Positions 5,561 through 61,672 of a DNA stretch of 64,000 bases are shown piece after piece (position 1 is the first letter of the stretch; each line of letters begins with the position of its first letter). A program made the position numbers and the translations under genes. A model generated the notes under the pieces. The model saw nothing but the letters and a program-made list of their open reading frames with translations. It did not search any database and had not been told where the DNA came from. Location: positions 222,247-286,246 of the forward strand of contig NBIV01000065.1 in assembly GCA_003194525.1 (NCBI GenBank), given 5' to 3'. This stretch comes from Gracilariopsis chorda (Eukaryota; Rhodophyta; Florideophyceae; Gracilariales; Gracilariaceae).

Positions 5561-5822
5561 TGTCGGTCGTGAAATTGGTAGAATATTCCAGCACTGCTGG
5601 AACACACTTGTAGAGTGCTCCAGCAGTGTCTGTAGCATTGTAAGCGTCGCTGGCCCAGCATTACCACTGTATTTCGGTGATGCAGTCACCAGTTGCTAAA
5701 TTACTATTGGTTAGTGTGCAGCTCCAGAGGCTTCTGGAAGCCAATGGAGTAACCTAGACGCACACATGAGTAAGTAGAAAGTAGTAATGCGTTTCTGTGT
5801 TGTTTTGCATGCTTTTTGACTC

Positions 5823-5863
5823 TATAAAAGGGCGAGTTGAGTCCCGAACTTCGGTCCGGACTC
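5823..5863 (+). promoter_or_regulatory. G1 LTR core promoter and 5'-terminal hairpin
   Basis: TATAAAAG at 5823-5830 predicts transcription starting about 25-30 bases downstream. Exactly there, 5839-5863 forms a GAGTCC...GGACTC stem enclosing a CTTCGG loop, and the stem is kept in the 3' LTR. It could be a hairpin at the RNA 5' end or a DNA dyad; the sequence does not decide. Confidence 0.55.
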
Positions 5864-6074
5864 ATCTCAAGGAGAACTGCATCTCAATTTCTCACCCCTA
5901 CAACTGTGTCCACTATTACTATCAACCATCAACTCTCAACCGTACATAGTGAGGCGCTTGCCGCTTTGTGCATACTTGAGGTGGGGCATAACCGTCGCTG
6001 AGACCGGTTGAAGCGCCCTTGGCGTGGACGAAAGACGGGTAATGTGTACCAAAGGCGCTTCTGTCGTCTGTGAG

Positions 6075-6375
6075 CCCCCACCGGAGCTTTGCTCGGATAA
6101 CGGTGACGGTCGAAAGACCTGGTGGTCTCCGGACGAAGGTGCTTGATGGAAAGCTGTCCGCAGGCCACGTGCCGTGCAACCTCTTCTGCAAAGGGCCAGA
6201 TTGGGTATAGAGTGAAACCATATCCTGCTGTTAGTAGTTCTCCTTTGGAAGCCCTGTAAGGATTGTACGCACCTGCTTTTGGTTGGTGCAGAAGTGGATA
6301 GGCTGCAGAAATCACTTCATATCTGGAGTGTCTTACCGGAAGGCGGGGGTCTGACTCCTAGTGACCCTTGAAATA
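6075..6375 (+). promoter_or_regulatory. structured leader module shared with copia A and B
   Basis: Collinear matches to the copia B leader: GATAACGGTGAC at 6096-6107 (B 53602-53613) followed by GTCG..AAGACCTGG; CAGGCCACGTG at 6161-6171 (B 53838-53848); and a block from GGCCAGA (6194) to TCCTTTGGAAGCC (6241-6253), which matches B 53932-53993 with nearly the same spacing and also the A leader (47401-47460, minus strand). The segment includes GGTC-GAAA-GACC, a GNRA-loop hairpin (6108-6119). It lies in the 5' UTR of gag-pol mRNA. An IRES, packaging or dimerisation role is inference. The same copy sits in the 3' LTR at +5680. Confidence 0.7.
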
Positions 6376-6614
6376 ATTCTTGGGTTGTGTGCCGTTTCAA
6401 GAAGTATCAAGAAGATCGTATTTTGATTGAGCCTTGTGCTCTCCTTTTGTATTTGTTGTTATCGTTGCAGGTTGAGTCCTTTTGGTCCCTGCATTGGTTG
6501 TTCATTTGATCTTTTGATCGTGTTGTTTCATCTTTTTGGGGCTTCGGTCTACGAGGATTACCTTTTTTAGGCTAATTTGTCATTTATTTTGGCCCCCTGC
6601 GTCACCGTCTCGTG

Positions 6615-7610
6615 ATGGCGCCCACATGGTACTCTCGAGGAGGGCATTCTTCTGATTCTAGCCCTACATTTCTTTCTTTCGATGGACTGTCTGTAGACGT
6701 TGTGATGTTTTTCTTCTACTTTGAGAATGCTGCTATGAGAGGAAAGACCGAAGACGATATGGCGCTCGAGCTTCTTGGCTTTCTAGAGAAGAAAGCCTTC
6801 GAGTTTTATTATGATACTTAGGCCATTAATGGTTCCCTCTCTGAAGAAGCAAAAGATTATCAATCCGTGAAACAAGCTTTTATCAATCGCTTTGGAAAAG
6901 TCGAAGAACCTGAAGAGGATATTCACCTGGCAATATCGGCTAAACTGGATTATGGAGATTTGGTTGGTTCCTTTAGTCATATGGACAACCTCTTCCAGAA
7001 AGCTGGATTCAATTGTAAGGCAAACGTCGGCCTGTTAGGAAAAGCGGTGATGGAATACGCTGATTTAGCCCAGTTCATCGTCTTTCGTGGTGCAGAAGAT
7101 TATGAAGAGTTGAAGGTTCAAGTGAAAGCCTTCGATGCTCCCAAGAAAGCGATGGGTTCGCATGTTTCATTCAGGGGTCCACCGAAGCGTATTGTCCAAA
7201 ACCACAGACCATTGGATCATTCTTCCCACCACGGTTTGGAGTCCAAGGTTGATAGATTATCCGAACATTTTGCAGAGCCTACTCTCATGGTTAAGAAGTC
7301 ACAGGCGGAGCGCAGAGATTACGAGAAAACATGCGCATACTATAGGAAGCCCGGTCACTACGCGTCTCAATTTGATGCCAAACCACACCGTGATACCAGA
7401 TGTGCTAACTGTGGAAAGCTTGGGCACTCTGAGATTGCTTGTTGGAGACTTATCAGGCCCAACGAGACTGGAAAGGGGTCGGAAAACAGAGAGGAACAGA
7501 AAGATTCTTCGTCCGGCGCACAGAAGAGGTCTGATACCGTTTCTATCGTGACTGAGAACCCTCGGAGTGCCGAAGTCGTCGCTACGACCAAGAGAAGTGC
7601 CGATGGTTAA
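6615..7610 (+). pseudogene. gag: G1 gag (nucleocapsid region, one in-frame stop)
   Basis: Translation from the ATG at 6615 begins inside the LTR (ATG GCG CCC ACA are its last 12 bases) and runs through the primer-binding site. After a TAG at 6819-6821 the frame continues to a TAA at 7608-7610. The middle resembles retrotransposon capsid (KQAFINRFGKVEEPEEDI... DLVGSFSHMDNLFQKAG). Near the end are two zinc knuckles: one degraded (CAYYRKPGHYASQF, missing two Cys) and one intact CX2CX4HX4C (CANCGKLGHSEIAC). The downstream pol is in the same frame, so gag-pol was probably one polyprotein. The alternative start GTG at 6612 is less likely than the ATG. Confidence 0.85.
6627..6643 (+). other. G1 primer-binding site
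   Basis: TGGTACTCTCGAGGAGG directly follows the LTR with no spacer, as expected for priming by a tRNA 3' end (CCA). The site is also read as gag codons. The tRNA was not identified. Confidence 0.7.
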
Positions 7611-10600
7611 GCGCTCCCGAAGCAGCGCCATTCAGATGGCAGAGCGCCTATCCCTTCCTTGTTGAATCCACCTGGCTATGAAGAGAGAATCCTCAGCGCA
7701 AAGGGTCATGAGCAGAGGGAAAAGAAACAAAAACAGAGAAAGTCCACGAAAGAGAGCATAAAGGATCATGCAAGCAAGTATAATGTTCTAACGGAGCTGG
7801 CTAATGCCTCATCTGGGCTCACGTTTGGGTAATTAATCCGTGGAGACGCCGATGACGCTAAGAAAGAGATTCGAAAGTTCATTAGCCGAAAAAGCAATGT
7901 CCGACGCTCTTTTTTTGCTCCAGTTGGCGGACAGCCTAGAAGTCTGGAAGCAGTTCCTGTAAGGATATATAGAACTAAAACCGAAGCTTTGCTTGATTCT
8001 GGTGCTGTCCCTAACCTCATGTATACTAAGCTGTGCATGAAACTATCGTTGGAGCCCGAACCTACCTCAAAGAAGATCACGGTTGCTAATGGAACAAGCG
8101 CTGTATGTAAGGGTATACTTCATGATTTGCCCATTTCGTTCGGAGGCATTTCAATTCCATTGGAGTTCCTTGTAATCGGAGCGCCTCCATTCGATATTAT
8201 TGTTGGGTGTCCCACACTTGAGACGCTTCAGGCCTGCCTAGATCTTGGTAATCAACAAGTTAAGATGAAGATAGCTGGCAAGAAAGTGACACTTGGGTTT
8301 GACTATGCTCACGTTGAAGTATCAGAAGGGGATGAAGGTGACACGGATAGCGACGATTTTACGTCTGACTCCGACGCTGCTTGTGATGAGAGCGGTTCCG
8401 AGGAGAATGATGAACAGGTCATCGCTCTGACAGGCAAGACTAAAGACGAAAGTAATGGCATGATAACAGAGTTGGACATCACTACTAAGGATCAGCATGA
8501 TGAGTTGTTGTTCTCAAAGCTCTCTCATGTACCAGAGAAAGAACAAAAGGAGATGAGCTCATGCCTGAAAGAAGCTGATGTAATCGCGTGGTCACTAACA
8601 GATCTGCGCCCTGCCGATGTCCCCGTCTCACATTCCTTCGAGCTCACCGTTGATAAGCCAATATATTTCCGGGCAAGAAGAATGTCCCCGAAGCACAATG
8701 AGGTCATTCGAAAGGAAATAGATCTCCTACTTGAAGCCGGTATTATTACCCCTTCTTCGTCAGCCTGGTCGTTCCCAGTGGTCATAGCCTCTAAGAAGGA
8801 TGGATCTCCAAGGTTCTGTGTGGACTACCGAGAACTCAATAGGTTCATGAAGGCCGATCGCTGGCCGCTGCCTCAAATGGAGGAAATCTTTGACGAACTT
8901 CGCGGGTGTTGCGTGTTCACTACACTCGATCTGTTTTCTGGATACTGGCAAGTGAGAATGTCTGAAGAATCCAAAGAGATGACCACTTTTGTTTGCAGGT
9001 ATGGAAATTTCATGTTCGAAGTCATGCCTTTTGGTCTAATGAATGCTCCCTCTACCTTTCAGCGGATGATGGACCATGTTCTTAGAGATCTGCCGTTTGT
9101 GAGAGTCTATATTGATGACGTTGTTATATTCTCTAATAACCTGGAAGAGCATACTGTTCATCTGAAGTTAGTGCTGGAACGCATTAGTAAGCACGGCCTT
9201 AAGGTTAAGTTGTCAAATTGTTTCTTTGCACTCCCAGGAATATCTCTTTTTGGACATGTAATTGATTCCAGTGAGGTATCTGTGGACTACTCAAAGATTG
9301 AGAAGATACAGGGCGCCCCAATCCCCAGAACTACGACAGAGCTAAGGTCATTTCTTGGATGGGCAGGGTACTATCGCCGATTCATCAGAGGCTTTGCAGA
9401 GACATATTCAGCTCTTCACAGTGCTATATCTGGGACCAGGAATCTGACATGGACGGATGACATGCTTGATGCCTTTCACAGTTTGAAGAAGAAGCTGACA
9501 GAGCCCCCATTGTTATCGTTTCCAGACTTCGTGGAGCCTTTCATTATGGAGACCGACGCTTCCAGTGTTTCCCTTGGCGCAGTGTTATCTCAGAAGAAAG
9601 AAGATGGAAAGAATCACCCGCTTTAATTTGCCAGCCGTACCATGACTGCAGCAGAAAAAAATTAATCTGCATGCGCAAGAGAAGCTTTGGCGGTCATATT
9701 TGCTCTTAAGAAGTTCAGGGTGTATCTTCTTTCGTCCGTTCCATTCAAGGTCATCACTGATCACATGGCTCTGCGTTATGCATTCCAGAAGCGAGATATA
9801 CATGGACGCTTAGCACGCTGGCTCGATTTCCTGGCTGAATATGACTTCGAGATTGAGTACCGCGCAGGCAAGGATAATGGTGCTGCCGATTATCTCTCTA
9901 GGGTCGTTCATGGAAATGAAGTTGAAGTGCACGAAGACGAAGGGGATTTGGGTTGTCTGGTCTCTGACGCCGTACAGTTTTCTGGACTGGAACCGTACTA
10001 TGCTAATATTGCTCGCTACCTTTCTGGGTCGCCTTCTGATGAGGAAGATGCCTACATCCGTCAGGCGATCCGACGAAACGCTAAGCGGTTCCCTGTCTGG
10101 GAAGGGAAGCTCTTCAGAAGAATGGTGAATCACCTACGAGTTGTCCCAGACATCAAACTGAGACAAAACATTATCAAGTCGTTTCATGATGAGATCGGAC
10201 ATTGGGACGTAAAGGCTACGAGGAAGATGATCACTGAGAGGTTCTGGTGGCTCAATATTTACCAAGAAATTGGAGAATATGTCAAGAGTTGCGACGAATG
10301 TCAGAGAATGGCCCCACTTCCCAAGTACTACAGCAACATGCATACTCCCATGTCCTCTCTTTTTGATGTATACTCGATTGACTTCGCAGGCCCATTCCCG
10401 AAAAGCAAGTCCGGGCACAGGTTTCTTCTGGTTTGTGTGGAGCACTTGACCGGCTGGCCTATTTCTATTCCCACCAAAACATCTACGTCACAAATGGTTA
10501 TTGAGTTTGTGAAGAAGATGATCATTTCTCCTTTCGGGCTGCCTAGGATCATTGTGTCAGACAAAGCGACTTGCTTCACTTCTAACTCACTTTCAGCTTT

Positions 10601-11219
10601 CATGGAAGAAAATGGTATCAAGTGGAAGACAGTCCTGGCTTACGCTCCCATGTCGAATGGTAGAGGTGAAAGAATGGTTGCTGACCTTAAGCAGTCTCTT
10701 GGAAAGATGTTGCTTGCAAACTGTTGTAGTTGGGACGATGAGCTTTCTTCTGTACTGTATGGATACCGTCGCAGACACCTAGCCAGTGGAATCTCGCCTT
10801 TCGAGCTACTTTATGGCGTGAAGCCGTGCATGGACCGAGAGGAGTATGGCATGGTAACCAGAAGGACGAATTCTACGGACAAATTCAGAGCAGTCAAAGC
10901 TTTAGCAGCATCTAACCCCAGGGCGGAGCGTTCTGTGCTCAGACGCAGGCAAAATTTTGACGAGAAGAAGATACAGAAGTTTCAAGTTGGCGATCTGGTT
11001 TTGGTGGCAAAGGGAAAGGCCTTGAATACAACAATTAAGTGGCCTGCATTCTCTTCGAAGTTCTTTGGCCCATGTCGTGTTGTGAGAGCCATGCACCCCC
11101 GCTACACATTGGTTTCCCCACACAATCGCTACACCAGACATGGCATTCACGCTCGTCGCTTGAAGATGTTCTTTCAGCGTCCGAATGGAGTTTACATTTT
11201 CAAGGTTGCCATGGCGTAG
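7611..11219 (+). pseudogene. pol: G1 pol: protease, RT, RNase H, integrase
   Basis: Same frame as gag, numbered from Met at 6615. Protease has LDSGA (Asp 461). RT has the fingers/palm motifs and YIDD at 832-835. RNase H begins near METDASSVSLGAVLSQ. Integrase has a zinc-binding H..H..CDEC region, then a catalytic triad SIDFAG (Asp 1256), VSDKAT (Asp 1316) and GERM (Glu 1352), with the canonical 35 residues between the second Asp and the Glu. It ends with a GPY/F-like module (FFGPCRVV...YTL) and no chromodomain. Four in-frame stops (7608, 7830, 9624, 9663) interrupt it, without any frameshift over 4.6 kb. The stop at 9663 replaces a residue that is normally Tyr in ..KNYSAC.. of relatives. As written it cannot make full-length Pol. 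Confidence 0.9.
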
Positions 11220-11240: not shown

Positions 11241-12306
11241 TGTCGGTCGCGAAATTGGTAGAATATTCCAGCACTGCTGAAACACACGTGTAGAGTGCTC
11301 CAGCAGTGTCTGGAGCATTGTAAGCGTCGCTGGCCCAGCATTACCACTGTATTTCGGTGATGCAGTCACCAGTTGCTAAATTACTATTGGTTAGTGTGCA
11401 GCTCCAGAGGCTTTTGGAAGCCAATGGAGTAACCTAGACGCACACATGAGTAGGTAGAAAGTAGTAATGCGTTTCTGTGTTGTTTTGCATGCTTTTTGAC
11501 TCTATAAAAGGGCGAGTTGAGTCCCGAACTTCGGTCTGGACTCATCTCAAGGAGAACCGCATCTCAAGTCCTCACCCCTACAACTGTTTCCACTATTACT
11601 ATCAACCATCAACTCTCAACCGTACATAGTGAGGCGCTTGCCGCTTTGTGCATACTTGAGGTGGGGCATAACCGTCGCTGAGACCGGTTGAAGCGCCCTT
11701 GGCGTGGACAAGAGACGGGTAGTGTGTACCAAAGGCGCTTCTGTCGTCTGTGAGCCCCCACCGGAGCTTTGCTCGGATAACGGTGACGGTCGAAAGACCT
11801 GGTGGTCTCCGGACGAAGGTGCTTGACGGAAAGCTGTCCGCAGGCCACGTGCCGTGCAACCTCTTCTGCAAAGGGCCAGATTGGGTATAGAGTGAAAGCA
11901 TATCCCGCTGTTAGTAGCTCTCCTTTGGAAGCCCTGTAAGGATTGTACGCACCTGCTTTTGGTTGGTGCAGAAGTGGATAGGCTGCAGAAATCACTTCAT
12001 ATCTGAAGTGTCTTACCGGAAGGCGGGAGTCTGACTCCTAGTGACCCTTGAAATAATTCTTGGGTTGTGTGCCGTTTCAAGAAGTATCAAGAAGAGCGTA
12101 TTTTGATTGAGCTTTGTGCTCTCCTTTTGTATTTGTTGTTATCGCTGCAGGTTGAGTCCTTTTGGTCCCTGCATTGGTTGTTCATTTTATCTTTTGATCG
12201 TGTTGTTTCATCTTTTTGGGGCTTCGGTCTACGAGGATTACCTTTTTTAGGCTAATTTGTCATTTATTTTGGCCCTCTGCGTCACCGTCTCGTGATGGCG
12301 CCCACA
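11241..12306 (+). repeat. G1 3' LTR
   Basis: 1066 bp, same ends as the 5' LTR, with a few substitutions (for example the dyad arm at 11271-11281 is altered). A short purine-rich tract (TTGAAGTTGGGATTG) precedes it. Confidence 0.95.
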
Positions 12307-23911: not shown

Positions 23912-23999
23912 GAGAAAATAACGTAACGACGGGAACGATCACTGAACTTCCGGTAAATAAAAACAAACCTCGTAAGAGGGAAAACAAAAACCAATTCTA

Positions 24000-24012
24000 G
24001 GTCGGGAGACCA
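24000..24012 (-). other. G2a primer-binding site
   Basis: On the minus strand TGGTCTCCCGACC begins three bases after the 5' LTR, as expected for a tRNA 3'-CCA primer. The tRNA was not assigned. Confidence 0.6.
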
Positions 24013-24015
24013 CTT

Positions 24016-24842
24016 TGTGGTGCAATGCTCCAAAGGGGAAAAACACCGAAAGACGTTCGGGATCTTCCTCTCACGAGGTGAACCCAGTTGGGTAGAGCCC
24101 TCCCAGAGGTGTCACCGCGAAGCCCGTTTGTAAGACCAGGGACACCTGTCGCGACTCGCGCAGGGAGGTGAAGGCGAAGAATTGGTATCCGCGTGAGCGG
24201 GGTGTGATCCTCAGTAGAGGTATGTTTCCACGTAAGTGGGGAAGTGTGAGCGGATGCGCACACGAGGGCCGCGGATAGCGGGAGGCGCTACCCTAAAAAG
24301 GGGGGAAAGGAAGGGCGAAGAGGAGGAAGAGAGGACGATGCGAGTTGCGAGAGCGACGAGCAGATACGGCAATGCCAGTGGACAGGACTCCCTATACAGG
24401 GCGAAACACCAATATGATTGGAACAATTATACTCCCAGTGATGGGTTTCTTTAGATGTGCAAGGGGGTTAGATGTCCCGTGGTTTACGGCGTTTCCCTCC
24501 AAGGAGGAGTAGAGTACGCGCGCAAGCGGCAACAAGTAGAGCCAATTCCCCAGGTTGGGGTCCCTTGTTGGGGAAGATTTACTGGTGCAACGGCAGTGCG
24601 CCGTCGCACTAAGTACTAGCTTCCCAGAAATGGGTGTGAAAATAATAAATAATATTAACTAAAATACTCCACATTTCGTGGCAAAATCCGCTACTGTGGC
24701 CAACCGCCAATTGACCCAAAACCGTGTCCCACGTGTCCATATCCACCATAGTGGGGCGTAGTTCATATACACACTACACAACCGATAATATCGGGAAAAC
24801 GATCAAGTACCAAGAATCCCTCCCTGAGGGCGTTGCACTACA
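24016..24842 (-). repeat. G2a 5' LTR
   Basis: 827 bp, nearly identical to 15078-15904, so copy a is young. One of the differences breaks the strongest hairpin stem (the base at 15651 is G there, A here). Confidence 0.95.
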
Positions 24843-46290: not shown

Positions 46291-46913
46291 TCTATGAGGA
46301 TAGTGGCCACATAGTCCCATGTCAATTCCGAGATGTCATTTGTCCGAAGTGCCGCAGCCGTTGACTCTAGTGAGCAGTTGGGATCAATAGAGGCTAACAG
46401 CATTGGCGCCTTGTGGGATTCGGGAATGGCAGCATCCTTCCCCATTCGGTCTAGGTGAGAGAATAGGGACGCAAACTGGTCGACATAGTCCGACATATTC
46501 TGACCATTATACGACATTCGGAATAGCTGGGTCTGTACAGCAATACGTGACACTGTCCTATTAGACGCATACCTCGCATCAAGAAGTTGGAGCATACGCC
46601 CAGGGTCATCATCGACGTCTATAACCACACGCAGAGGTGCTTCTCCAAGTGCGCATACTATGATTGCGCATGCCTTTTCCCGTTTGGCAAGTACACGGGG
46701 AGCGGACTGCGGATCGCTTGAGCCCAACGCTTGCGTCGTGGTAGCACTGTATGACCCCTCCGAGCCTGACATTACGACATTTCAGACTCCTTTGGTGCGA
46801 CATGCAGCTCGTAGACGATGTCGCCATAACTTATAATCCTCACCACGTTTACCATGGAAGCGAGGGATCTTCACACCAGAGGTGGTTCCGGACTCAACTT
46901 CGGAGTCAGACAT
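46291..46913 (-). pseudogene. gag: copia A' gag, 5' part
   Basis: ATG at 46913 opens MSDSEVES..GVKIPRFHGKRGEDYKLWRHRLRAACRTKGV, the usual copia Gag opening. A TGA (46784-46782) stands where relatives have Trp (KGVW). The frame then continues through MLQLLDARYASNRTVSRIAVQTQLFRM..DYVDQFASLFSHL (UBN2-type Gag) to SELTWDYVATILID, where it abuts G2b at about 46291. It follows an A-type LTR and primer site on the minus strand. Confidence 0.8.
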
Positions 46914-47280
46914 TGTTCCAGAAGGAGTTCAAATACCAAAGTAAATAAAACAAATGTAGCAGAGTGAGGGACTCGATGCCTTGAATCGATGATCAGCTGA
47001 GATCAAAGAGAATGATTGCGGTACAGGCGTTGAATTGTAGCTGATGTCACACTAAGAAAGAGATACTGGCGTGGAGATTTGTCGACACTGAACAGGTCGG
47101 ATGCCAGCGGAGACCGTGTAAACAAGTCTCAACGCTCGTCCAGACGCGTCTGGTACGCGAATCACAGGCAGAGTTCGGGTCCTCGACGCCTGGAGTATAC
47201 TCACAAGTGGCTCTGAAGCGCACTCGGAAAAGAAAATGAAAGATGAAACTTCGTAAAGACGGGCGCACTGACAGGAGAAA

Positions 47281-47460
47281 CTATCTCCGCCAACCTAAGG
47301 GTTGAACCCCTGGACCCTGGATGCTCTCTCCAGGTGCGAGATGGGATTTTCTTTGACCTGCCCTACTCCGCGCACTTCACGAGTAGGGTGCTCAATCCGT
47401 ACGAAACGTCCCAGGGAGGTTACTAACAAGCGCGATATGCTTTCACCAGTTAAACCCTGC
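47281..47460 (-). promoter_or_regulatory. copia A leader: copy of the shared 5' module
   Basis: On the minus strand, 47460-47410 (GGGTTTAACTGGTGAAAGCA.. then TTAGTAACCTCCCTGG) aligns with B 53940-53990 and G1 6200-6250. 47320-47281 (CAGGGGTTCAACCC..GGCGGAGATAG) aligns with B 54077-54110. The first block seen in G1 and B (GATAACGGTGAC) was not found here. Confidence 0.6.
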
Positions 47461-47551
47461 TGGTCTCTTGCGGGATATTAGCTTGATCTTACGCGCGCAC
47501 GCAAAAATAAAACAAGTTGAAACCGAGCGACGTCTGCAAATATCACTTTTC

Positions 47552-47565
47552 TGGGCCCATAACCT
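47552..47565 (-). other. copia A' primer-binding site (internal initiator tRNA)
   Basis: GGTTATGGGCCCAG on the minus strand is complementary to the anticodon region of initiator methionine tRNA (CTGGGCCCATAACC), the primer type known for Drosophila copia and some other copia elements. Confidence 0.8.
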
Positions 47566-47568
47566 AAT

Positions 47569-48383
47569 GATATGAAATGATGTTGGTAGATGATGTTGTA
47601 CTTTGGCCGAAATGAAAAAGAAAGAAAGAGAGAAGATTAACAGTGAAGGTTGCCAGGCTTGGGGGCGAGTTTATTTGGTACTGCGACTTCAGCGTCTTAT
47701 ATAGCACATTTACTTCGCACTACCACTACAAGAAACCCCTACACCACTATGTGGGGACACCCAATACTATCAATCATAGTCAAACATAACACAATAAGGG
47801 ATGCACACACGGATTACAGCTAAGTACAACCATGCATAACATCATAACAACACATTACAACAACGCACACCACGTGAACCAAGCAGCCAACAATGCGCAA
47901 CAAGTGAACCAGACATGTCGAAAATGTGACAGCATGTGACAGAACTGTGTAAACACTTACTTGCATCATCATGACTATGACAAAGCACAAATTCACATGC
48001 CACCACATCCATGTACATACCCTAGGTGTGTTGCGTGCATGGCACGTGCTTACTTGCACAACTACACATATGCAACACCTGCATGTATCTTTAAACCAGA
48101 TGTAGCCACACATATTCCTAAGTACCAATCCCATTCACCTTATGCCAAGTGGCCAGTTCCGTGCCCAGGACCCATAGAATGAATAACACTTGTAACCAAT
48201 ACGTTGCATATGAGTATTTGCAGTAGCCAATTATATGCCCGTTTCTCGTTGGGTTTGAGAACACACGCATATGCGCTTTTGCAAAGCAGCTCCAAAAAAC
48301 AGCCCTCCGTTATATGACACTTTGTTTCCAAGTGCTGCACCATGATGTCCCAGGACTACCAGGCACTCGACTATGTGCTAACA
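47569..48383 (-). repeat. copia A LTR shared by two elements
   Basis: On the minus strand it starts TGTTAGCACATAG immediately after the pol stop (48384) and ends near 47569, a few bases before the primer site. TATA box TATATAAG at about 47703-47696. It serves as the 3' LTR of A (48384-52263) and the 5' LTR of A' (46291-47551). A 30-bp segment at 48202-48231 matches the B LTR in 27 positions. Confidence 0.8.
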
Positions 48384-52263: not shown

Positions 52264-53042
52264 TGTTGGCAGTAGTAACTGTGCTGTCACTGAAAACCAA
52301 ATGTTCCGGGGAGCATGGGCTGTTTTAGAGGGTACCTCTGCAAAAGCACATATGCGCGTGTGCACGAACCCAACGTGAAACTGGCTTCTAATTGGCTACT
52401 GCAAATGTACAGATGCAACGTGGTGCGTACAAGTGGTATGGCATAACTGGATCGGTTGGACACACCCACGTGTCCAGCTACTACAGTGGTCACAGTATAC
52501 GTTGTGTGCAGGGGATACTGGTGAAGTGGTTGACAGCTGGTACAAGTGGTACAGCAGTGGTTGGTACAATGGTAAGGTGCGCATGCACTGTCAACAGGTT
52601 TACACATGCACGGGTATATTGATGACGTGGGTGTTGTGTGCATTGCCACATGATGACATGGCACTAACACCACAGGTTACGTGCCGACTTACCGTGACGT
52701 GTTGACTTACCGTGATGTGTTGGCATGTGCTGGCGTGTGTTGGAGTCGTGAATTTGTGCCTTGTCATGGTCATGTGTATGCACGTAACTATTACGGAACG
52801 TTGGTGCGTTGGTGTGCGTTGATGTAATGAGGTTGTGCTGAGCTGGCTATGTCATGTTAGATGATGATTGGTAGTATTGAGTGTCCCTGCTTAGTGGTTT
52901 AGGTTTTACTTGTAGTTGGTGTTCCCGCGCAATTCGAGTTTAGAGTGGTATATAAGATGTGCCTGAAGGACCTCCAAGTAAATCCAAGCCAGAGCTGGCG
53001 AACTTCCCTTCCATCCCCTCAACTTCCTTTCAACTTTTAACA
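52264..53042 (+). repeat. copia B LTR1 (5' LTR)
   Basis: 779 bp, TGTTGGCAG...TTAACA. TATA box TATATAAG at 52949-52956, so the transcribed LTR part is short. Shares variants with LTR3 rather than LTR2. Confidence 0.95.
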
Positions 53043-53057
53043 GGTTATGGGCCCAGC
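53043..53057 (+). other. copia B primer-binding site (internal initiator tRNA)
   Basis: GGTTATGGGCCCAGC directly follows the LTR and is complementary to the anticodon stem-loop of initiator methionine tRNA, not to a tRNA 3' end. Confidence 0.85.
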
Positions 53058-53579
53058 CCCGCTGAACCTTGCCGCTATCATTTTCCGTATCGTTCGTCTG
53101 TCGCTGCTCTCCCTCACTGCCGTTCATCCGTTTCGCTGTTGTTGCCTCTTTTGTCGTTGCGTCGGGTGTCTTGATCCCATTGTTGGTCGGTGTTGGTCAT
53201 TCTCCTTTGGTTTGCGTTCCTCTCTGAGGGTGTTGTGGTGGTAGTGGTTCGACGTTTACTTCCTATCGTTGTTGAGTTGGGCCTCCGTTGTTGCCCGTGT
53301 TGTCGATCGCCATCTACTTTGTGTGTGACACTCCCTCTTTTTTGTGTTTTGGGATCCCCGAGTCGTTTGTCGGGTCGTATCCGTGAGGTTGAGTCGGTCT
53401 AGTTTCGAAGTCTGGGCTCCGTGATCGTGTGTTCAGCAGTTGTTTGTATTTCGTGTTTCTTAATCATCATCTGGTGTCCAGTGCGACGAGTGGTTGATCT
53501 GGGTTACTTTGGGTGATTCCAGGTATCCGGGGACGTGAGCCTGGCGGCTTGAACCAAAGCAGGTGTACTGTCGAGCGGC

Positions 53580-54110
53580 TTCCCACCGGTCCATTTGGAC
53601 AGATAACGGTGACCGTCGTTAAGACCTGGTAAGTTCAGCGGGTGCATCTGTGGACGGGGTGCCGTGGCGTACTGCGCTGGTGCGGGTGATTGAATTATTT
53701 GTTTTGATCCTGACTGCGTGTCGGGATTCTTGGGCTGTTGCGAAGGTATTCCATAACGAGCTTTTGATCCGTGCATCTGACCCTTGGGCGTTTGTGCGGG
53801 GAGGCGACGTGGCGTAGGCTGACCTCCTTCTTAGGATCAGGCCACGTGTGAACTTAAGTGGTTGCGCGTTAGCAGCGTACTTTGGTTGCCATAGTAGCTT
53901 CAGTTTCGAGGTCGCGCAAGTTCTTGCAAGAGGCCAGAGAGGGTTATACTTGGTGAAGGCATATCTTGGGTCATTAACCATCCTCTGGAAGCCTCGTAGA
54001 GAGCGACGCATCTTCTCCTTAGACGTAGGAGAGGGAAGACAGAAGAAGACGTCCTGTACCCGGAGCATCTCCGGGGGCCAGGGGTCCAACACCATAGGGT
54101 AGCGGAGGTA
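53580..54110 (+). promoter_or_regulatory. copia B leader: shared 5' module
   Basis: Within a 1.2-kb untranslated leader. Blocks: GATAACGGTGAC (53602-53613) preceded by a GTCC/GGAC hairpin and followed by GTCGTTAAGACCTGG; CAGGCCACGTG (53838-53848); GGCCAGAGAGGGTTATAC..GTGAAGGCATATC.. to TCCTCTGGAAGCC (53932-53993); and CCGGAGCATCTCCGGGGGCC.. (54060-54110). Same order as in G1's LTR. Function is inferred; an IRES is the leading idea. Confidence 0.7.
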
Positions 54111-54143
54111 GTTTTTCCCGTCAGTGCGCCCGAATTTGAAGTT

Positions 54144-54191
54144 TTGTTGTTATTGTTGTCGTTGTTTTTGTTGTTATTGTTGTCGTTGTTG
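54144..54191 (+). repeat. GU-rich 24-base repeat before gag
   Basis: A 24-base unit rich in TTGTTG starts at 54144 and again at 54168, ending about 70 bases before the gag-pol ATG. It is expected to be unstructured in RNA. Confidence 0.75.
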
Positions 54192-54261
54192 CCATTTTTG
54201 TACTACCTAAGTGCCGTAGGTCTTTCATCGCACCTGTGCTGTTTGTGGACATCTACCAAGC

Positions 54262-57200
54262 ATGGATTCATTCGGTGGCATCAAGATTGAAAAGTTGGGC
54301 GGAGATAACTTCCATGTATGGAAGCAAAAGGTTGAGTTGCTGCTTGCACTCAAGGACCTCGATGACCATCTTGAATCAACCAGGCCTACGGACGATGACG
54401 AGTTTTTAGCATGGAAGAAGAAAGACGCCAAGGCCAGGGCTGTTATTGGTCTCAGCATCAGTGATGAGCATTTGGACCATGTGAGGTATACCGAGAATGC
54501 TGTGGAAATGTGGAAAGCCATTTGCGATGTTTTCCAGCCTAAAACGCTGCTCAACCGAATCAATGCAAGACGTGCCTTCTACACAGCCAAGATGCGAGAT
54601 GATGAGAAAATGTTACACTTCATCAATCGTGTTTGTCATCTTGCATCGGATCTGAAGAGCATGGACGTAGTCGTTGAGGAAGAAGAAATCGCTATGGCAA
54701 TCCTATGTGGGCTACCAGACCGCTTCAAACACCTCATTGTCGCTATTGACACCACGATTGGTGATCGTAAACTCGATTTAGAATTTGTGAAGAGTCGTTT
54801 GCTGCAAGAAGAACAGCGAATGAACGATCGTGCCAAGGAGGAGTCCGGAAGTGACACGGCTTTGGTCGGTGCGCAGTCACGAAAGAAGTCCATGGTGTGC
54901 TATTACTGTGGTAAGAAGGGGCATATCCAGAGAAACTGTTCCAAGAGACAACGTGACGAAGCTACCAAAGAGCAGAGTGCTGCCGCAGACCCAGCTGTGC
55001 AGACCGATCTCGGCAACGAGAAACGAGGATGTGACAGTGACTCTGACTTTGTTTGTCTCATTGCGACAGGTTCTGTGGAAGAAAGTATCAGTGACTGGAT
55101 CATTGACTCTGGTGCCGCCGCCCATATGACGTATGACGAGTCCATGTTTGACAGTTATAGCAAAAGAGAGTCTGCCGGTGTGAGTATCGGCAATGACTCG
55201 AAGCTGGAGTCTCTTGGTCATGGCAGTGTCCACCTCGATCTCGCTGTTGAAGGGCGTAAGAGCAAGTGCTGGTTGGGTGTAGTAGTGCAAGTACCGAATT
55301 TAAGGTATCATCTGCTGTCAGTATCTGCGATGTGTGACCTGGGTGCGCGAGTGGTGTTTGACAAAACCAAAGTATGTGTATACAAAGGCAACACCATGAT
55401 CGCCCAGGGCCGTCGCACCAAAGGACTGTACTACCTATGTACCACGATTGAAGTACCAAAAGACATGGACAACGCACTTGTGACTGACCTGTCACTATGG
55501 CATGCTCGAATGGCTCATGTGAATGTGGATGGTATCAAACATATGGCTCGTAACGGTGTTGTGTCAGGGCTGACTGTGGACTTGAATCAATCGATGGATG
55601 TGAGTGACTCTTTTGTACTGGGAAAATCTACACGTGCTCCAACTCACAAGCAAGGGGGGAAACGGGCTTTGCACCCATTGGAACTAGTGCATTCGGACAT
55701 TTGTGGTCCAATCCAAGTAGGTTCCTTAAGAGGTTCCCGCTACTTCGTCACATTCATCGATGATCACTCCCGTTTTTGCTTCTTGTACATGCTCACGACC
55801 AAGGATGAGGTGTTCCACGTGTTCGTGAAGTGGCTCAAGATGGTTCAAAATCAGAGTGACCGACATGTGAAAACCATCACCGCACGTGAGTCTGTGCTAC
55901 ATGCGTTACGCACAGACAATGCTTGTGAATATGTGTCAAAGAAGTTTTCACAAGAGCTTGAACGTCACGGTATTGAACATCAGCGAACGGTGCCTTACAA
56001 TCCACATCAGAATGGTCTGGCCGAACGGTTCAACCGAACACTCATGGACTTGGTGAGATCGATGCTGCATCACAAGAAACTGCCAAAGAGCTTCTGGGCT
56101 GAAGCATTGAACGTTGCAGTGTATGTGCGCAATCGAGTCACGTGCAAGGCCCTTCCGAGTAACGTGACACCACTCGAGATGTGGAGAGGATATGAACCTG
56201 ACTTGAGCAATCTGCGTGTGTTCGGTAGCCGGTGCTGGTACAAAGTGGTGGACCACAAGCTGAAGAAGCTGGAGCAACGTGCCGTGAAGGCGATCTTTAT
56301 TGGGTACACAACTGGATCGAACGGTTATAAACTGTGGGATGCGCAAAAGAAGAAGGTGGTTGTGTCGAGAGATGTGAGGTTTGACGAATGTAGTGGTTCA
56401 GATCAAGGTACTGACCACGTTGATGATGACGACTATGCTGAGATCGACATCTCGGACAAGCCGAAATCAAACATCACCTCCTCCTCTACTACACCCACCG
56501 ATGCTGCCCAAGTTGAACCCGCTGCACCAGATACTCCACCAGAAGAAGCTTCAGGCAGTGGCCACGATGAGCCCACAGCTGAGACAGAAGTTGAGCCAGA
56601 CGTACCAGATCCACCATCACTTCGGAGATCCACTCGTGAGCGTAGAGCGCCTACCTCGTGGTGGCGCGGCACTGCCCTACTCACTGCCAGTGATGACGTC
56701 CCATCCTCATACTCCGATGCGGTGTCACGCTCTGATTCAAAAGCGTGGACCAAGGCCATGAACAATGAGTACGAGTCTATGATGGAGCATGACACATGGG
56801 AGTTAGTGCCAAGGCCAGCTGACAGCAACGTGATATCATCCAAGTGGGTATTTGTGCAAAAATATGAGGCTGGCGACAACGATGAACCGACAGTGAGGTA
56901 CAAGGATCGTGTGGTGGCTCGAGGGTTTCTGCAGATCGGAGGTGTAGACGTCTCCGAGACGTATGCACCAGTGGTCAAATTCACATCCATTAGAATGATT
57001 CTGTCCATTGTAGCAGTGCAGGACTATCATCTGCACCAGATGGATGTGAAGACTGCATTCTTGAATGGCGACCTGGAAGAGACTGTGTACATGGAGCAGC
57101 CAGACGGATTCATCACACCTGGGAACAAGGACTTGGTATGCCTTCTCAAGAAAGCCATCTATGGGCTTCGACAGGCATCAAGGCAGTGGTTTGCAAAGAT

Positions 57201-58287
57201 GTACTTGTTCCTCGTTGTTTGGATGGGTCTGAAGCCAAACGTTGCAGACGAGTGCGTCTACACCGGAGAGGTACTGGGAGCGCTTGTGATCATTGCTCTT
57301 TATGTGGACGACTTGCTCATTGCAAGTCCAAGTATGGAGACAATGAATCGCGTAAAGCGTGAACTGTCAAAACGTTTTCAGATGAAGGATCTCAGTGAAG
57401 CGCGCATGGTACTTGGGTTCGAGATCCATCGTGATCGATCCAAAAGACAGCTGTACCTGACACAGTCTGCATACACTCGTAAGGTCTTAGAACGTTTTGG
57501 CATGTTGCAGTGCAAACCAATGGACACTCCCATGGACTCCAGTGCTGACCTCACTAAGGTAGAAGAGCCTCTGACGAACATCCCGTATCGCCAGGTGATC
57601 GGTTGTCTGATGTATCTCTCTGTTGGCACTCGACCGGACATCTCGTTTGCAGTTTCCAAGCTAGCCAAGTATGTCGAGAAACCTGGAGAGACTCATTGGA
57701 AAGCGGTCAAGCATGTTCTTTGTTACCTCAATGGCACTCGCTCCCTCGGACTTACTTATGGCACCACGACTGATACTCAGCTGTATGGATACGTAGACTC
57801 TGACTGGGCAGGTGATACATCCAACCGCAAGTCCACCAGTGGGTATGTGTTCATGATGTGCGGTGCTCCTGTGTCTTGGAGCTCGCGCCAACAGGAAGTA
57901 GTTGCATTGTCTAGCGCTGAGGCTGAGTATGTGAGTCTGTGCAGTGGGACGAAGGAAGCGATCTGGCTGAGACGACTGTGGAGTTGCATTGGCAACGCAA
58001 GTGGACTACACGTGGATGAGTCAGTGACGCTAATGGTTGAGCCCACAACTGTGTACGTGGACAACCAAGGTTGCATCGACCTTGCTCGAAATGGAGTTGT
58101 GAACAAGCGTACTAAGCACATTGATATTCGCTTTCACTTCACCAGAGAGGCTCTACGCGACAAAGCCGTCCAGTTGCAGTACTGTTCCACGGAAGACATG
58201 GTTGCCGATATGCTGACGAAAGCGCTCGGTCGAGTTAAGCTGGCAAGGTTCCGCGGTGACTGTGGCTTGCTCCCCTTAGACCTTTGA
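54262..58287 (+). CDS. gag-pol: copia B Gag-Pol polyprotein (intact)
   Basis: 1341 codons with no interruption. Gag (UBN2 type, GGDNFHVWKQKVELLLALKD) is followed by zinc knuckle CYYCGKKGHIQRNC (213-226). Aspartic protease has Asp 282 (WIIDSGAAAHMT). The GAG-pre-integrase segment has LWHARMAHVN. Integrase residues are Asp 479 (HSDICGP), Asp 552 (RTDNACEY) and Glu 588 (NGLAERFNR), giving the canonical D-35-E. RT has VKTAFLNGDLEETVYMEQP and YVDD at 1014-1017. RNase H has Asp 1179 (GYVDSDWAGD) and SSAEAEY. One odd residue: YKDRVVARG, where the inverted copy and relatives read YKAR. Start at the ATG (MDSFGGIKIEKLGG) after a GU-rich tract. The only element in the window whose coding frame is complete. 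Confidence 0.95.
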   Translation: MDSFGGIKIEKLGGDNFHVWKQKVELLLALKDLDDHLESTRPTDDDEFLAWKKKDAKARAVIGLSISDEHLDHVRYTENAVEMWKAICDVFQPKTLLNRINARRAFYTAKMRDDEKMLHFINRVCHLASDLKSMDVVVEEEEIAMAILCGLPDRFKHLIVAIDTTIGDRKLDLEFVKSRLLQEEQRMNDRAKEESGSDTALVGAQSRKKSMVCYYCGKKGHIQRNCSKRQRDEATKEQSAAADPAVQTDLGNEKRGCDSDSDFVCLIATGSVEESISDWIIDSGAAAHMTYDESMFDSYSKRESAGVSIGNDSKLESLGHGSVHLDLAVEGRKSKCWLGVVVQVPNLRYHLLSVSAMCDLGARVVFDKTKVCVYKGNTMIAQGRRTKGLYYLCTTIEVPKDMDNALVTDLSLWHARMAHVNVDGIKHMARNGVVSGLTVDLNQSMDVSDSFVLGKSTRAPTHKQGGKRALHPLELVHSDICGPIQVGSLRGSRYFVTFIDDHSRFCFLYMLTTKDEVFHVFVKWLKMVQNQSDRHVKTITARESVLHALRTDNACEYVSKKFSQELERHGIEHQRTVPYNPHQNGLAERFNRTLMDLVRSMLHHKKLPKSFWAEALNVAVYVRNRVTCKALPSNVTPLEMWRGYEPDLSNLRVFGSRCWYKVVDHKLKKLEQRAVKAIFIGYTTGSNGYKLWDAQKKKVVVSRDVRFDECSGSDQGTDHVDDDDYAEIDISDKPKSNITSSSTTPTDAAQVEPAAPDTPPEEASGSGHDEPTAETEVEPDVPDPPSLRRSTRERRAPTSWWRGTALLTASDDVPSSYSDAVSRSDSKAWTKAMNNEYESMMEHDTWELVPRPADSNVISSKWVFVQKYEAGDNDEPTVRYKDRVVARGFLQIGGVDVSETYAPVVKFTSIRMILSIVAVQDYHLHQMDVKTAFLNGDLEETVYMEQPDGFITPGNKDLVCLLKKAIYGLRQASRQWFAKMYLFLVVWMGLKPNVADECVYTGEVLGALVIIALYVDDLLIASPSMETMNRVKRELSKRFQMKDLSEARMVLGFEIHRDRSKRQLYLTQSAYTRKVLERFGMLQCKPMDTPMDSSADLTKVEEPLTNIPYRQVIGCLMYLSVGTRPDISFAVSKLAKYVEKPGETHWKAVKHVLCYLNGTRSLGLTYGTTTDTQLYGYVDSDWAGDTSNRKSTSGYVFMMCGAPVSWSSRQQEVVALSSAEAEYVSLCSGTKEAIWLRRLWSCIGNASGLHVDESVTLMVEPTTVYVDNQGCIDLARNGVVNKRTKHIDIRFHFTREALRDKAVQLQYCSTEDMVADMLTKALGRVKLARFRGDCGLLPLDL

Positions 58288-58295
58288 AGTCAGTG

Positions 58296-58307
58296 ACAGA
58301 GGGGGGG
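58296..58307 (+). other. copia B polypurine tract
   Basis: ACAGAGGGGGGG lies directly before LTR2. Primes plus-strand DNA synthesis in LTR elements. Confidence 0.8.
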
Positions 58308-59086
58308 TGTTGGCAGTAGTACCTGTGCTGTCACTGAAAACCAAATGTTCCGGGGAGCATGGGCTGTTTTAGAGGGTACCTCTGCAAAAGCGCATATGCG
58401 CGTGTGCGCGAACCCAACGTGAAACTGGCTTCTGATTGGCTACTGCAAATGTACATATGCAACGTGGTGCGTACAAGTGGTATGGCATAACTGGATCGGT
58501 TGGACACACCCACGTGTCCAGCTACTACAGTGGTCACAGTGTACGTTGTGTGCAGGGGATACTGATGAAGTGGTTGACACCTGGTACAAGTGGTACAGCA
58601 GTGGTTGGTACAATGGTAAGGTGCGCATGCACTGTCAACAGGTTTACACATGCACGGGTATATTGATGACGTGGGTGTTGTGTGCATCGCCACATGATGA
58701 CATGGCACTAACACCACAGGTTACGTGCCGACTTACCGTAACGTGTTGACTTACCGTGATGTGTTGGCATGTGCTGGCGTGTGTTGGAGTCGTGAATTTG
58801 TGCCTTGTCATGGTCATGTGTATGCACGTAACTATTACAGAACGTTGGTGCGTTGGTGTGCGTTGGTGTAATGAGGTTGTGCTGAGCTGGCTATGTCATG
58901 TTAGATGATGATTGGTAGTATTGAGTGTCCCTGCTTAGTGGTTTAGGTTTTACTTGTACTTGGTGTTCCCGCGCAATTCGAGTTTAGAGTGGTATATAAG
59001 ATGTGCCTGAAGGACCTCCAAGTAAATCCAAGCCAGAGCTGGCGAACTTCCCTTCCATCCCCTCAACTTCCGTTCAACTTTCAACA
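58308..59086 (+). repeat. copia B LTR2
   Basis: 779 bp. It contains the perfect 12-bp palindrome GCGCATATGCGC (58386-58397 region) and shares its variants with LTR4 and LTR5. Confidence 0.95.
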
Positions 59087-59147
59087 AGGTTCCGCGGTGA
59101 CTGTGGCTTGCTCCCCTTAGACCTTTGAAGTCAGTGACAGAGGGGGG
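59087..59147 (+). repeat. 61-bp duplicate of the B pol 3' end between two LTRs
   Basis: Matches 58246-58307 (AGGTTCCGCGG ... GAGGGGGG) but begins right after LTR2, with no primer site. Best read as what remains of a second internal region after a deletion between GGTT sequences. Confidence 0.9.
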
Positions 59148-59918
59148 TGTTGGCAGTAGTACCTGTGCTGTCACTGAAAACCAAATGTTCCGGGAGCATG
59201 GGCTGTTTTAGAGGGTACCTCTGCAAAAGCACATATGCGCGTGTGCACGAACCCAACGTGAAACTGGCTTCTGATTGGCTACTGCAGATGTACATATGCA
59301 ACGTGGTGCGTACAAGTGGTATGGCATAACTGGATCGGTTGGACACACCCACGTGTCCAGCTACTACAGTGGTCACAGTATACGTTGTGTGCAGGGGATA
59401 CTGGTGAAGTGGTGGACACCTGGTACAAGTGGTACAGCAGTGGTTGGTACAATGGTAAGGTGCGCATGCACTGTCAACAGGTTTACACATGCACGGGTAT
59501 ATTGATGACGTGGGTGTTGTGTGCATTGCCACATGATGACATGGCACTAACACCACAGGTTACGTGCCGACTTACCGTGACGTGTTGACTTACCGTGATG
59601 TGTTGGCATGTGCTGGCGTGTGTTGGAGTCGTGAATTTGTGCCTTGTCATGGTCATGTGTATGCACGTAACTATTACGGAACGTTGGTGCGTTGGTGTGC
59701 GTTGATGTAATGAGGTTGTGCTGAGCTGGCTATGTCATGTTAGATGATGATTGGTAGTATTGAGTGTCCCTGCTTAGTGGTTTAGGTTTTACTTGTAGTT
59801 GGTGTTCCCGCGCAATTCGAGTTTAGAGTGGTATATAAGATGTGCCTGAAGGACCTCCAAGTAAATCCAAGCTAGAGCTGGCGAACTTCCCTTCCATCCC
59901 CTCAACTTCCTTTCAACA
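59148..59918 (+). repeat. copia B LTR3
   Basis: About 771 bp; the 3' end is short by about 8 bases (..TTTCAACA, then A-family sequence). Variants ally it with LTR1. Confidence 0.9.
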
Positions 59919-60034
59919 TTCCCAGAACGCTTTGGCTTCTCAACTGCGTTCACCCTCAGCTGGTCCAAGATTGCTTGTGGCAGATGGTTGTCAGGGTTGT
60001 CTGGATTCACGTGACATCGGTCTTGGGTATGTCC
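59919..60034 (+). repeat. 116-bp A-family spacer at the palindrome centre
   Basis: Nearly identical to 51702-51817, the part of A encoding GHTQDRCHVNPD..DQLRVNAVEKPKRSG on the minus strand. It separates the two inverted B arms. Confidence 0.95.
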
Positions 60035-60813
60035 TGTTGAAAGTTGAAAGGAAGTTGAGGGGATGGAAGGGAAGTTCGCCAGCTCTGGCTTGGATTTACT
60101 TGGAGGTCCTTCAGGCACATCTTATATACCACTCTAAACTCGAATTGCGCGGGAACACCAAGTACAAGTAAAACCTAAACCACTAAGCAGGGACACTCAA
60201 TACTACCAATCATCATCTAACATGACATAGCCAGCTCAGCACAACCTCATTACATCAACGCACACCAACGCACCAACGTTCTGTAATAGTTACGTGCATA
60301 CACATGACCATGACAAGGCACAAATTCACGACTCCAACACACGCCAGCACATGCCAACACATCACGGTAAGTCAACACGTCACGGTAAGTCGGCACGTAA
60401 CCTGTGGTGTTAGTGCCATGTCATCATGTGGCAATGCACACAACACCCACGTCATCAATATACCCGTGCATGTGTAAACCTGTTGACAGTGCATGCGCAC
60501 CTTACCATTGTACCAACCACTGCTGTACCACTTGTACCAGGTGTCAACCACTTCATCAGTATCCCCTGCACACAACGTATACTGTGACCACTGTAGTAGC
60601 TGGACACGTGGGTGTGTCCAACCGATCCAGTTATGCCATACCACTTGTACGCACCACGTTGCATATGTACATTTGCAGTAGCCAATCAGAAGCCAGTTTC
60701 ACGTTGGGTTCGCGCACACGCGCATATGCGCTTTTGCAGAGGTACCCTCTAAAACAGCCCATGCTCCCCGGAACATTTGGTTTTCAGTGACAGCACAGGT
60801 ACTACTGCCAACA
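60035..60813 (-). repeat. copia B LTR4 (inverted)
   Basis: 779 bp, the reverse complement of LTR2/LTR3-type sequence, followed by the same 61-bp internal fragment in inverted order (60814-60874). Confidence 0.95.
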
Positions 60814-60874
60814 CCCCCCCTCTGTCACTGACTTCAAAGGTCTAAGGGAGCAAGCCACAGTCACCGCGGAACCT

Positions 60875-61653
60875 TGTTGAAAGTTGAACGGAAGTTGAGG
60901 GGATGGAAGGGAAGTTCGCCAGCTCTGGCTTGGATTTACTTGGAGGTCCTTCAGGCACATCTTATATACCACTCTAAACTCGAATTGCGCGGGAACACCA
61001 ACTACAAGTAAAACCTAAACCACTAAGCAGGGACACTCAATACTACCAATCATCATCTAACATGACATAGCCAGCTCAGCACAACCTCATTACACCAACG
61101 CACACCAACGCACCAACGTTCTGTAATAGTTACGTGCATACACATGACCATGACAAGGCACAAATTCACGACTCCAACACACGCCAGCACATGCCAACAC
61201 ATCACGGTAAGTCAACACGTTACGGTAAGTCGGCACGTAACCTGTGGTGTTAGTGCCATGTCATCATGTGGCGATGCACACAACACCCACGTCATCAATA
61301 TACCCGTGCATGTGTAAACCTGTTGACAGTGCATGCGCACCTTACCATTGTACCAACCACTGCTGTACCACTTGTACCAGGTGTCAACCACTTCATCAGT
61401 ATCCCCTGCACACAACGTACACTGTGACCACTGTAGTAGCTGGACACGTGGGTGTGTCCAACCGATCCAGTTATGCCATACCACTTGTACGCACCACGTT
61501 GCATATGTACATTTGCAGTAGCCAATCAGAAGCCAGTTTCACGTTGGGTTCGCGCACACGCGCATATGCGCTTTTGCAGAGGTACCCTCTAAAACAGCCC
61601 ATGCTCCCCGGAACATTTGGTTTTCAGTGACAGCACAGGTACTACTGCCAACA
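60875..61653 (-). repeat. copia B LTR5 (inverted)
   Basis: 779 bp, the 3' LTR of the inverted B' element. It shares with LTR2 the variants that distinguish it from LTR1 and LTR3. Confidence 0.95.
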
Positions 61654-61672
61654 CCCCCCTCTGTCACTGACT

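Follow-up and report, generated by a model that had tools for sequence, protein, structure and literature searches.

A predicted folded RNA module common to the leaders of gypsy and copia retrotransposons in the red alga Gracilariopsis chorda

Background

LTR retrotransposons are usually classed by their proteins, and the leader and LTR are assumed to follow. Retroviral leaders carry packaging, dimerisation and IRES signals and are AUG-poor before gag. The Cassandra TRIM elements carry 5S RNA sequence in their LTR, and unrelated SINE families share conserved central domains. Conserved non-coding motifs are described for LTR retrotransposons of the Sireviruses, a genus of plant copia elements (as summarised in PMC2829016), and new subfamilies of grass centromeric retrotransposons are reported to arise via recombination between elements (as outlined in PMC4079200).

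Here we analyse a leader module of about 230 nt in a 64-kb window (the whole stretch of DNA under study, C65:222247-286246) of a genome comprising 91.3 Mb in 1081 contigs. Like a retroviral leader, the leaders described here have multiple predicted hairpins ahead of gag and few AUGs, but the module shows no sequence relation to retroviral signals and its role is a proposed one. Like Cassandra, the gypsy element would place a structured RNA in its LTR; the Cassandra RNA is a known host RNA, whereas the red-algal module matches no known RNA family. As with the SINE central domains, one conserved domain is common to otherwise unrelated retroelements, although those domains lie in SINEs and not in the leaders of protein-coding LTR elements. 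The strongly conserved non-coding motifs of Sireviruses are likewise found in LTR retrotransposons, but in the summary account they belong to one copia genus, whereas the predicted folded RNA spans gypsy and copia (PMC2829016). Recombination among grass centromeric elements similarly yields new LTR-element subfamilies, but the exchange outlined for them is among their own subfamilies, not between superfamilies (PMC4079200). A literature search, mainly of titles and abstract openings, found no leader RNA common to gypsy and copia.

A covarying RNA common to both would show that regulatory RNA crosses superfamilies, and suggests that control parts are tradeable between unrelated mobile elements. 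It would add a structured RNA family absent from the Rfam release searched, and could serve to find host recognition of leaders, by way of a ligand common to elements with dissimilar Gags. The reading we favour, with a probability of roughly 60%, is that the module is a cis-acting RNA domain, homologous among its carriers, which recruits host machinery and has moved between superfamilies by recombination.

Results and discussion

LTR elements of the window

LTR elements crowd the window (Table 1). The gypsy element, G1, is assigned to Ty3/gypsy by its protease-RT-RNase H-integrase order and its RVT_1 domain. Its gag-region frame has no Pfam match, and in the window copy a stop lies downstream in the gag-like frame. 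Copia B, and a family C found elsewhere in the genome, are Ty1/copia, with the integrase region ahead of RT, RVT_2 and a copia gag; copia A is assigned by RVT_2 or copia gag read in neighbouring or related copies. The best organism-named database matches of the copia B protein are from Chondrus crispus (39-51% identity). Inverted repeats at 55955-64000, with arms of up to 1081 nt that are 96-100% complementary and contain copia B parts, form a palindromic element arrangement at the contig end. An antisense open frame of 158 codons spans the copia B leader at 53619-54095.

Table 1. Features of the window, with positions counted from its first nucleotide
Feature	Position	Strand	Evidence
5' LTR of gypsy G1	5561..6626	+	97.7% identity to 11241-12306 across 1066 bp
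TATA box (TATAAA) in G1 5' LTR	5823	+	sequence
Block 1 in G1 LTR	6023..6123	+	67.6% to 53528-53630 across 105 columns, E 3e-8 and 1e-8
Module in G1 5' LTR	6164..6395	+	R1 210.1 bits; copia-only R2 89.1 bits, E 3.3e-23
Conserved apical loop core in G1 5' LTR module	6212-6224	+	
Putative gag start codon of G1, within LTR	6615..6617	+	in frame with gag-like frame from 6627
G1 pol, two open frames	7989..11219	+	Pfam RVT_1, RT_RNaseH, Integrase_H2C2, rve
3' LTR of gypsy G1	11241..12306	+	pairs with 5561-6626, 97.7%
Module in G1 3' LTR	11844..12075	+	R1 216.4 bits; copia-only R2 96.9 bits, E 2.4e-25
Gypsy G2 AUG-free stretch	24016-24842 and 23912-24015	-	
Leader of copia A	46913..47560	-	ATG-free except primer-binding-site ATG
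Module in copia A leader	47260..47494	-	R1 212.8 bits
Core of copia A module	47446-47434	-	
5' LTR of copia B	52264..53046	+	98% to 58308-59091
Leader of copia B	53047..54261	+	ATG-free except one at leader start, within primer-binding site
Block 1 in copia B leader	53528..53630	+	67.6% to 6023-6123
Module in copia B leader	53904..54132	+	R1 185.6 bits
Predicted basal helix P1 in copia B	53930-53934 / 53991-53995	+	
Core of copia B module	53953-53965	+	
Gag-pol open frame of copia B	54262..58287	+	gag, then integrase, then RT
Second LTR of copia B	58308-59091	+	98% to 52264-53046

The shared leader module

A preliminary description of this DNA had reported three short blocks common to the G1 LTR and the copia B leader, the last of them also in the copia A leader, and had proposed an RNA element spanning the gypsy/copia divide. 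The last block (block 3) is present in all three elements and is longer than described, being part of the ~230-nt module. A covariance model built from 36 copies (R1) locates four copies and no more in the window, one in each G1 LTR, one in copia B and one in copia A; the other gypsy elements of the window lack it. The shared blocks probably lie in the 5' UTR, a placement resting on the TATA box and the position of gag.

Module similarity was compared with dinucleotide shuffles of the first piece of each pair (500 each for modules and block 1, 200 each for leaders). Local alignment scores were 33 for the G1-B modules (shuffled mean 9.1, max 15), 21 for G1-A (shuffled max 15) and 61 for A-B (shuffled max 16). 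Whole leaders gave 33 for G1-B (shuffled max 21) and 21 for G1-A (shuffled max 17). No shuffle equalled the observed score in any of the four comparisons of 500, block 1 included, or in either of the two of 200. By blastn the G1-B matches have E values of 6e-10 and 3e-8, and the A-B match 1e-23. The window's own G1 copy has no significant blastn match to copia A; five of eight other G1-like loci do match it (E 1e-6 to 3e-9). The copia and gypsy modules share a common ancestry of sequence. Chance or compositional similarity, which retains nothing in its favour except the middle 11-mer, has next to no probability given the shuffles and the recovery of gypsy copies by a copia-only model (below); for blocks 1 and 3 the shuffles refute it.

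The reported 12-mer, GATAACGGTGAC, begins at 6096 in G1 and 53602 in copia B and lies in a longer similarity, block 1, whose G1-B alignment scored 29 against a shuffled maximum of 15. Among the leaders compared, block 1 is common to G1 and B only; the A, C, D, E and F leaders had no match at E 0.01 (91 nt upstream searched in E, 156 nt in F). Its predicted fold has hairpins GAGC/GCTC and GGTC/GACC, which could nest in CCACCGG/CCTGGTGG. The middle 11-mer CAGGCCACGTG (6161 and 53838) did not survive as a shared block. It is kept in the window's second G1 LTR and in none of 14 other G1-like rows, six of which read GCGACGTG instead; it overlaps the 5' edge of the module in G1, but starts 66 nt ahead of the module in copia B.

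Carrier families

The genome contains the core pattern GTGAARSCATATC 744 times and its reversed control five times. Of 20 places hand-picked from the first 100 core matches listed, 16 were module copies (8 G1-like, 4 B, 2 A, 1 C and 1 D). In a second sample, 20 places hand-picked from 39 that were found with patterns designed to leave out the main families, 15 were module copies (8 G1-like, 5 C and 2 A) and 5 lacked the module. Together 31 of 40 places carry the module, all 31 matching families A-D or G1, and the other nine lack it. Families C and D came from these samples, and searches with them added E (78-79% to C; 20/40 scored matches) and F (88-89% to D; 39/40 scored matches). E is placed in copia by its copia gag only. 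The preliminary count of two copia families was an underestimate, since A, B, C, D, E and F are all carriers. Similarity between D and A extends along the element (67% across 1226 bp); the C locus and the B element have only 41 bp at the core in common (blastn, E 1e-5). Carriers are known from one gypsy lineage and from three deep copia lineages, the first comprising A, D and F, the second B, and the third C and E. The core pattern had no matches in viral contigs; one viral-contig stretch that matched a copia B peptide pattern encodes no relative.

A module of defined length in otherwise unrelated elements is what the capture of a host RNA or the insertion of a short repeat would leave. An inserted, SINE-like repeat would not be confined in this way to LTR-element families, which all 31 module copies of the picked sample match, and the nine other core places are without the module. 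Searches of Rfam with the window and both leaders gave sub-threshold matches and no credible family; the best overlapping match, CrcZ, lies on the opposite strand at 54088-54183 (21.2 bits against a threshold of 95; E 0.0027 in a short search, 0.14 in the whole window). A tRNA-like reading of helix H4 was dropped, ARAGORN finding no tRNA in the window. The suggestion of a captured host RNA is weakened by the lack of a credible Rfam match and of a host copy in the sample, and we regard capture or insertion as very unlikely.

Predicted fold and covariation

The module is predicted to fold into eight helices with 44 pairs (RNAalifold with RIBOSUM scoring); a default RNAalifold run on the 36-row alignment yielded a weaker fold that differed in part. 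Pairing occupied 84.8% of cells, against 42.0-51.0% with partners slid by 1-3 columns, and the covariation score was 0.403, against at most 0.160 with slid partners, both being scored on the alignment that gave the fold, whose rows represent few independent lineages. Three of five covariation measures exceed all 500 shuffles; the other two are not distinct from shuffles (31/500 for double-change pairs, 314/500 for further pair types), and four deep lineages only stand behind this evidence. Predicted pairing in the basal helix P1 is kept with different bases: GAGGC/GCCTC in B, GAGAC/GTTTC in A, AGGGC/GCCCT in G1, GGATC/GATCC in C and GGAAT/ATTCC in E.

Families E and F were left out of the derivation of the fold and provide a held-out comparison. 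Between E and C, which are about 78% identical, 26 pairs are unchanged, six have changed on both sides and are still paired, and six have changed on one side and are paired (one of them unpaired in the C row used). Five are non-standard (four already so in C) and one is gapped, a single standard pair having been lost. The held-out family thus has the compensatory changes expected of a functional structured RNA. F and D have no double changes, being too close to inform.

A second covariance model, R2, was built from 22 copia copies only, with their own RNAalifold structure. It recovers both G1 copies of the window (Table 1), the next match having an E value of 0.14. The same copia alignment without structure scored the 3' LTR copy at 62.1 bits and the 5' LTR copy at 62.7 bits, a gain from pairing of 35 and 26 bits respectively. 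On 23 further loci, R2 matched all 14 that are G1-like (37-100 bits) and none of the nine core-pattern loci without the module; for L070 and L102, the G1 copies that have decayed furthest, including structure brings no gain in score beyond sequence. The proposed RNA element spanning the gypsy/copia divide is borne out to the extent that it is homologous and covarying; the IRES and captured-host-RNA readings first suggested for it are weakened.

The main rival to the host-machinery reading is a packaging or dimerisation signal that marks full-length RNA, whose shared use would allow co-packaging across families and so account for its spread. In the leader, the module is found either between the primer-binding site and gag or immediately ahead of the primer-binding site, and it is kept in short tandem units that retain gag (L111 and L113, with no RT in the tested frames, and L112, with a truncated RT). 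The predicted H2 loop (columns 123-137 of alignment A4) has a self-complementary 4-mer in 8/8 family representatives and a self-complementary 6-mer in all five C copies, D, F and 2 of 12 A copies, reading TGCGCA or GTGCAC in C, D and F; we take these palindromes to be reminiscent of retroviral dimer initiation loops. The 4-mer is a weak lead, however, since the core columns also score 8/8 for 4-nt palindromes. The shortened elements still encode gag. The Gag proteins of the carriers are very different (B-C about 23% over gag to integrase; no Pfam match for the G1 gag-region frame), which makes it difficult to envisage Gag as a ligand common to them all. We hold a packaging or dimerisation role to be possible, and tentatively place it below even odds. 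Head-to-tail arrays of LTR elements, with one leader per unit, occur at C408 (L050-L057), C10:504564-527527, L111 and L113, with steps of ~7.8 kb for A and ~5.74 kb for G1, and of 2825 bp for A-like units with gag.

AUG depletion of the leaders

ATG counts were compared, for one leader per family, with 2000 dinucleotide shuffles. The G1 leader has 2 ATG against 11.7 expected (P 0.0005), copia B 1 against 15.1 (P 0.0005), copia A 1 against 6.9 (P 0.0025) and copia C none in 1218 nt against 8.2 (P 0.0005). The leaders span 0.65-1.2 kb, and ATG is scarce both above and below the module; the 1200 nt after the copia B primer-binding site have none against 14.7 expected. There is no depletion in the U3 controls of G1, B and A or on the antisense strand, and the antisense of the copia B leader has more ATG than expected (21 vs 12.5 in shuffles). 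The sole ATG of the A and B leaders lies within the primer-binding site TTATGGGCCCAG, presumably a complement of the initiator tRNA-Met anticodon arm like that of Drosophila copia.

Other copies agree to differing degrees. No ATG follows the primer-binding site in 25 of 28 delimited B leaders (31 loci examined, mostly near-identical). Among A copies, 6 of 15 leaders have none, eight have one and one has four (33 examined); among G1 copies, three of six have none and the others 1, 2 and 4 (8 examined). Depletion is not a trait of module carriers alone: gypsy G2, which lacks the module, is free of ATG over the final 650 nt of its LTR and over the 104 nt that precede gag.

An AUG-poor leader fits scanning of the whole leader and counts against internal entry being the sole route. 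Ribosomes probably scan the leader and so reach gag. An IRES, by which the module would recruit ribosomes internally for gag translation, agrees with a predicted structured RNA that lies, in the six families whose gag start was read, some 100-350 nt ahead of that start. Upstream AUGs would then be neutral, yet leaders are without them above and below the module, as the B and C counts and the 25 B leaders attest. This depletion across whole leaders weakens the preliminary IRES suggestion, which we consider improbable.

Conservation and mosaic history

Within gypsy, the shared blocks are conserved islands of the LTR. Between one copy each of G1 (L003) and subfamily G1b (L105), identity is 95% in block 1 (100 columns), 87.5% in the 40 columns between block 1 and the module, and 91.4% in the module (232 columns), against 71% in the LTR before the blocks (111 columns) and 69% after them (203 columns). 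In copia the contrast varies: the A and F modules are 75% identical and their neighbours 54-67%, whereas C and E show no contrast (module 80%, neighbours 75-82%).

Module DNA is 66-71% identical among A, B and C, and G1 is about 62-64% identical to the copia modules. For B-C, protein identity is only 23% across 756 residues and 32% across 292; it is 29% across 453 for B-A and 27% across 194 for C-A. Modules this similar in elements whose proteins are 23-32% identical have been either exchanged or extremely constrained. Constraint without exchange would mean old vertical inheritance from a copia/gypsy or all-copia ancestor, which accords with a constrained fold and with the module tree, where each family is one group and all gypsy copies stand apart from all copia copies (the root being a midpoint drawing). 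It sits poorly with a non-coding RNA more alike than the proteins, with the B element and C locus having no other common DNA by blastn at E 1e-5, and with other gypsy elements of the window lacking the module; we think it unlikely.

In the exchange reading that we prefer, the module would have moved between superfamilies via recombination of element RNAs that were expressed or packaged together, probably by template switching between RNAs in one particle. Transfer from copia to gypsy seems the more likely and is the simpler direction, because the known carriers include three deep copia lineages but a single gypsy lineage; a B-like leader is a plausible donor because block 1 is common to G1 and B only, among the leaders compared. 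The ligand would be a host component and not the Gag of the element itself, since the module is alike in carriers with very different proteins. We are less sure that the module binds such a conserved component, which would act on the long leader RNA in its translation, export or stability. The odds are about even, in our view, on a further proposition: that this one folded leader domain is an exchangeable control part, read by the host and not by Gag, and passed among deep LTR-retrotransposon lineages including gypsy and copia. If so, leader and coding region would have separate histories.

Pieces of LTR are common to copia A and B as well (48183-48305 and 52317-52439), 78-80% identical over 123 bp and 75-87% in related loci. 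Such sharing, despite a pol identity of about 29%, may indicate exchange beyond the leader.
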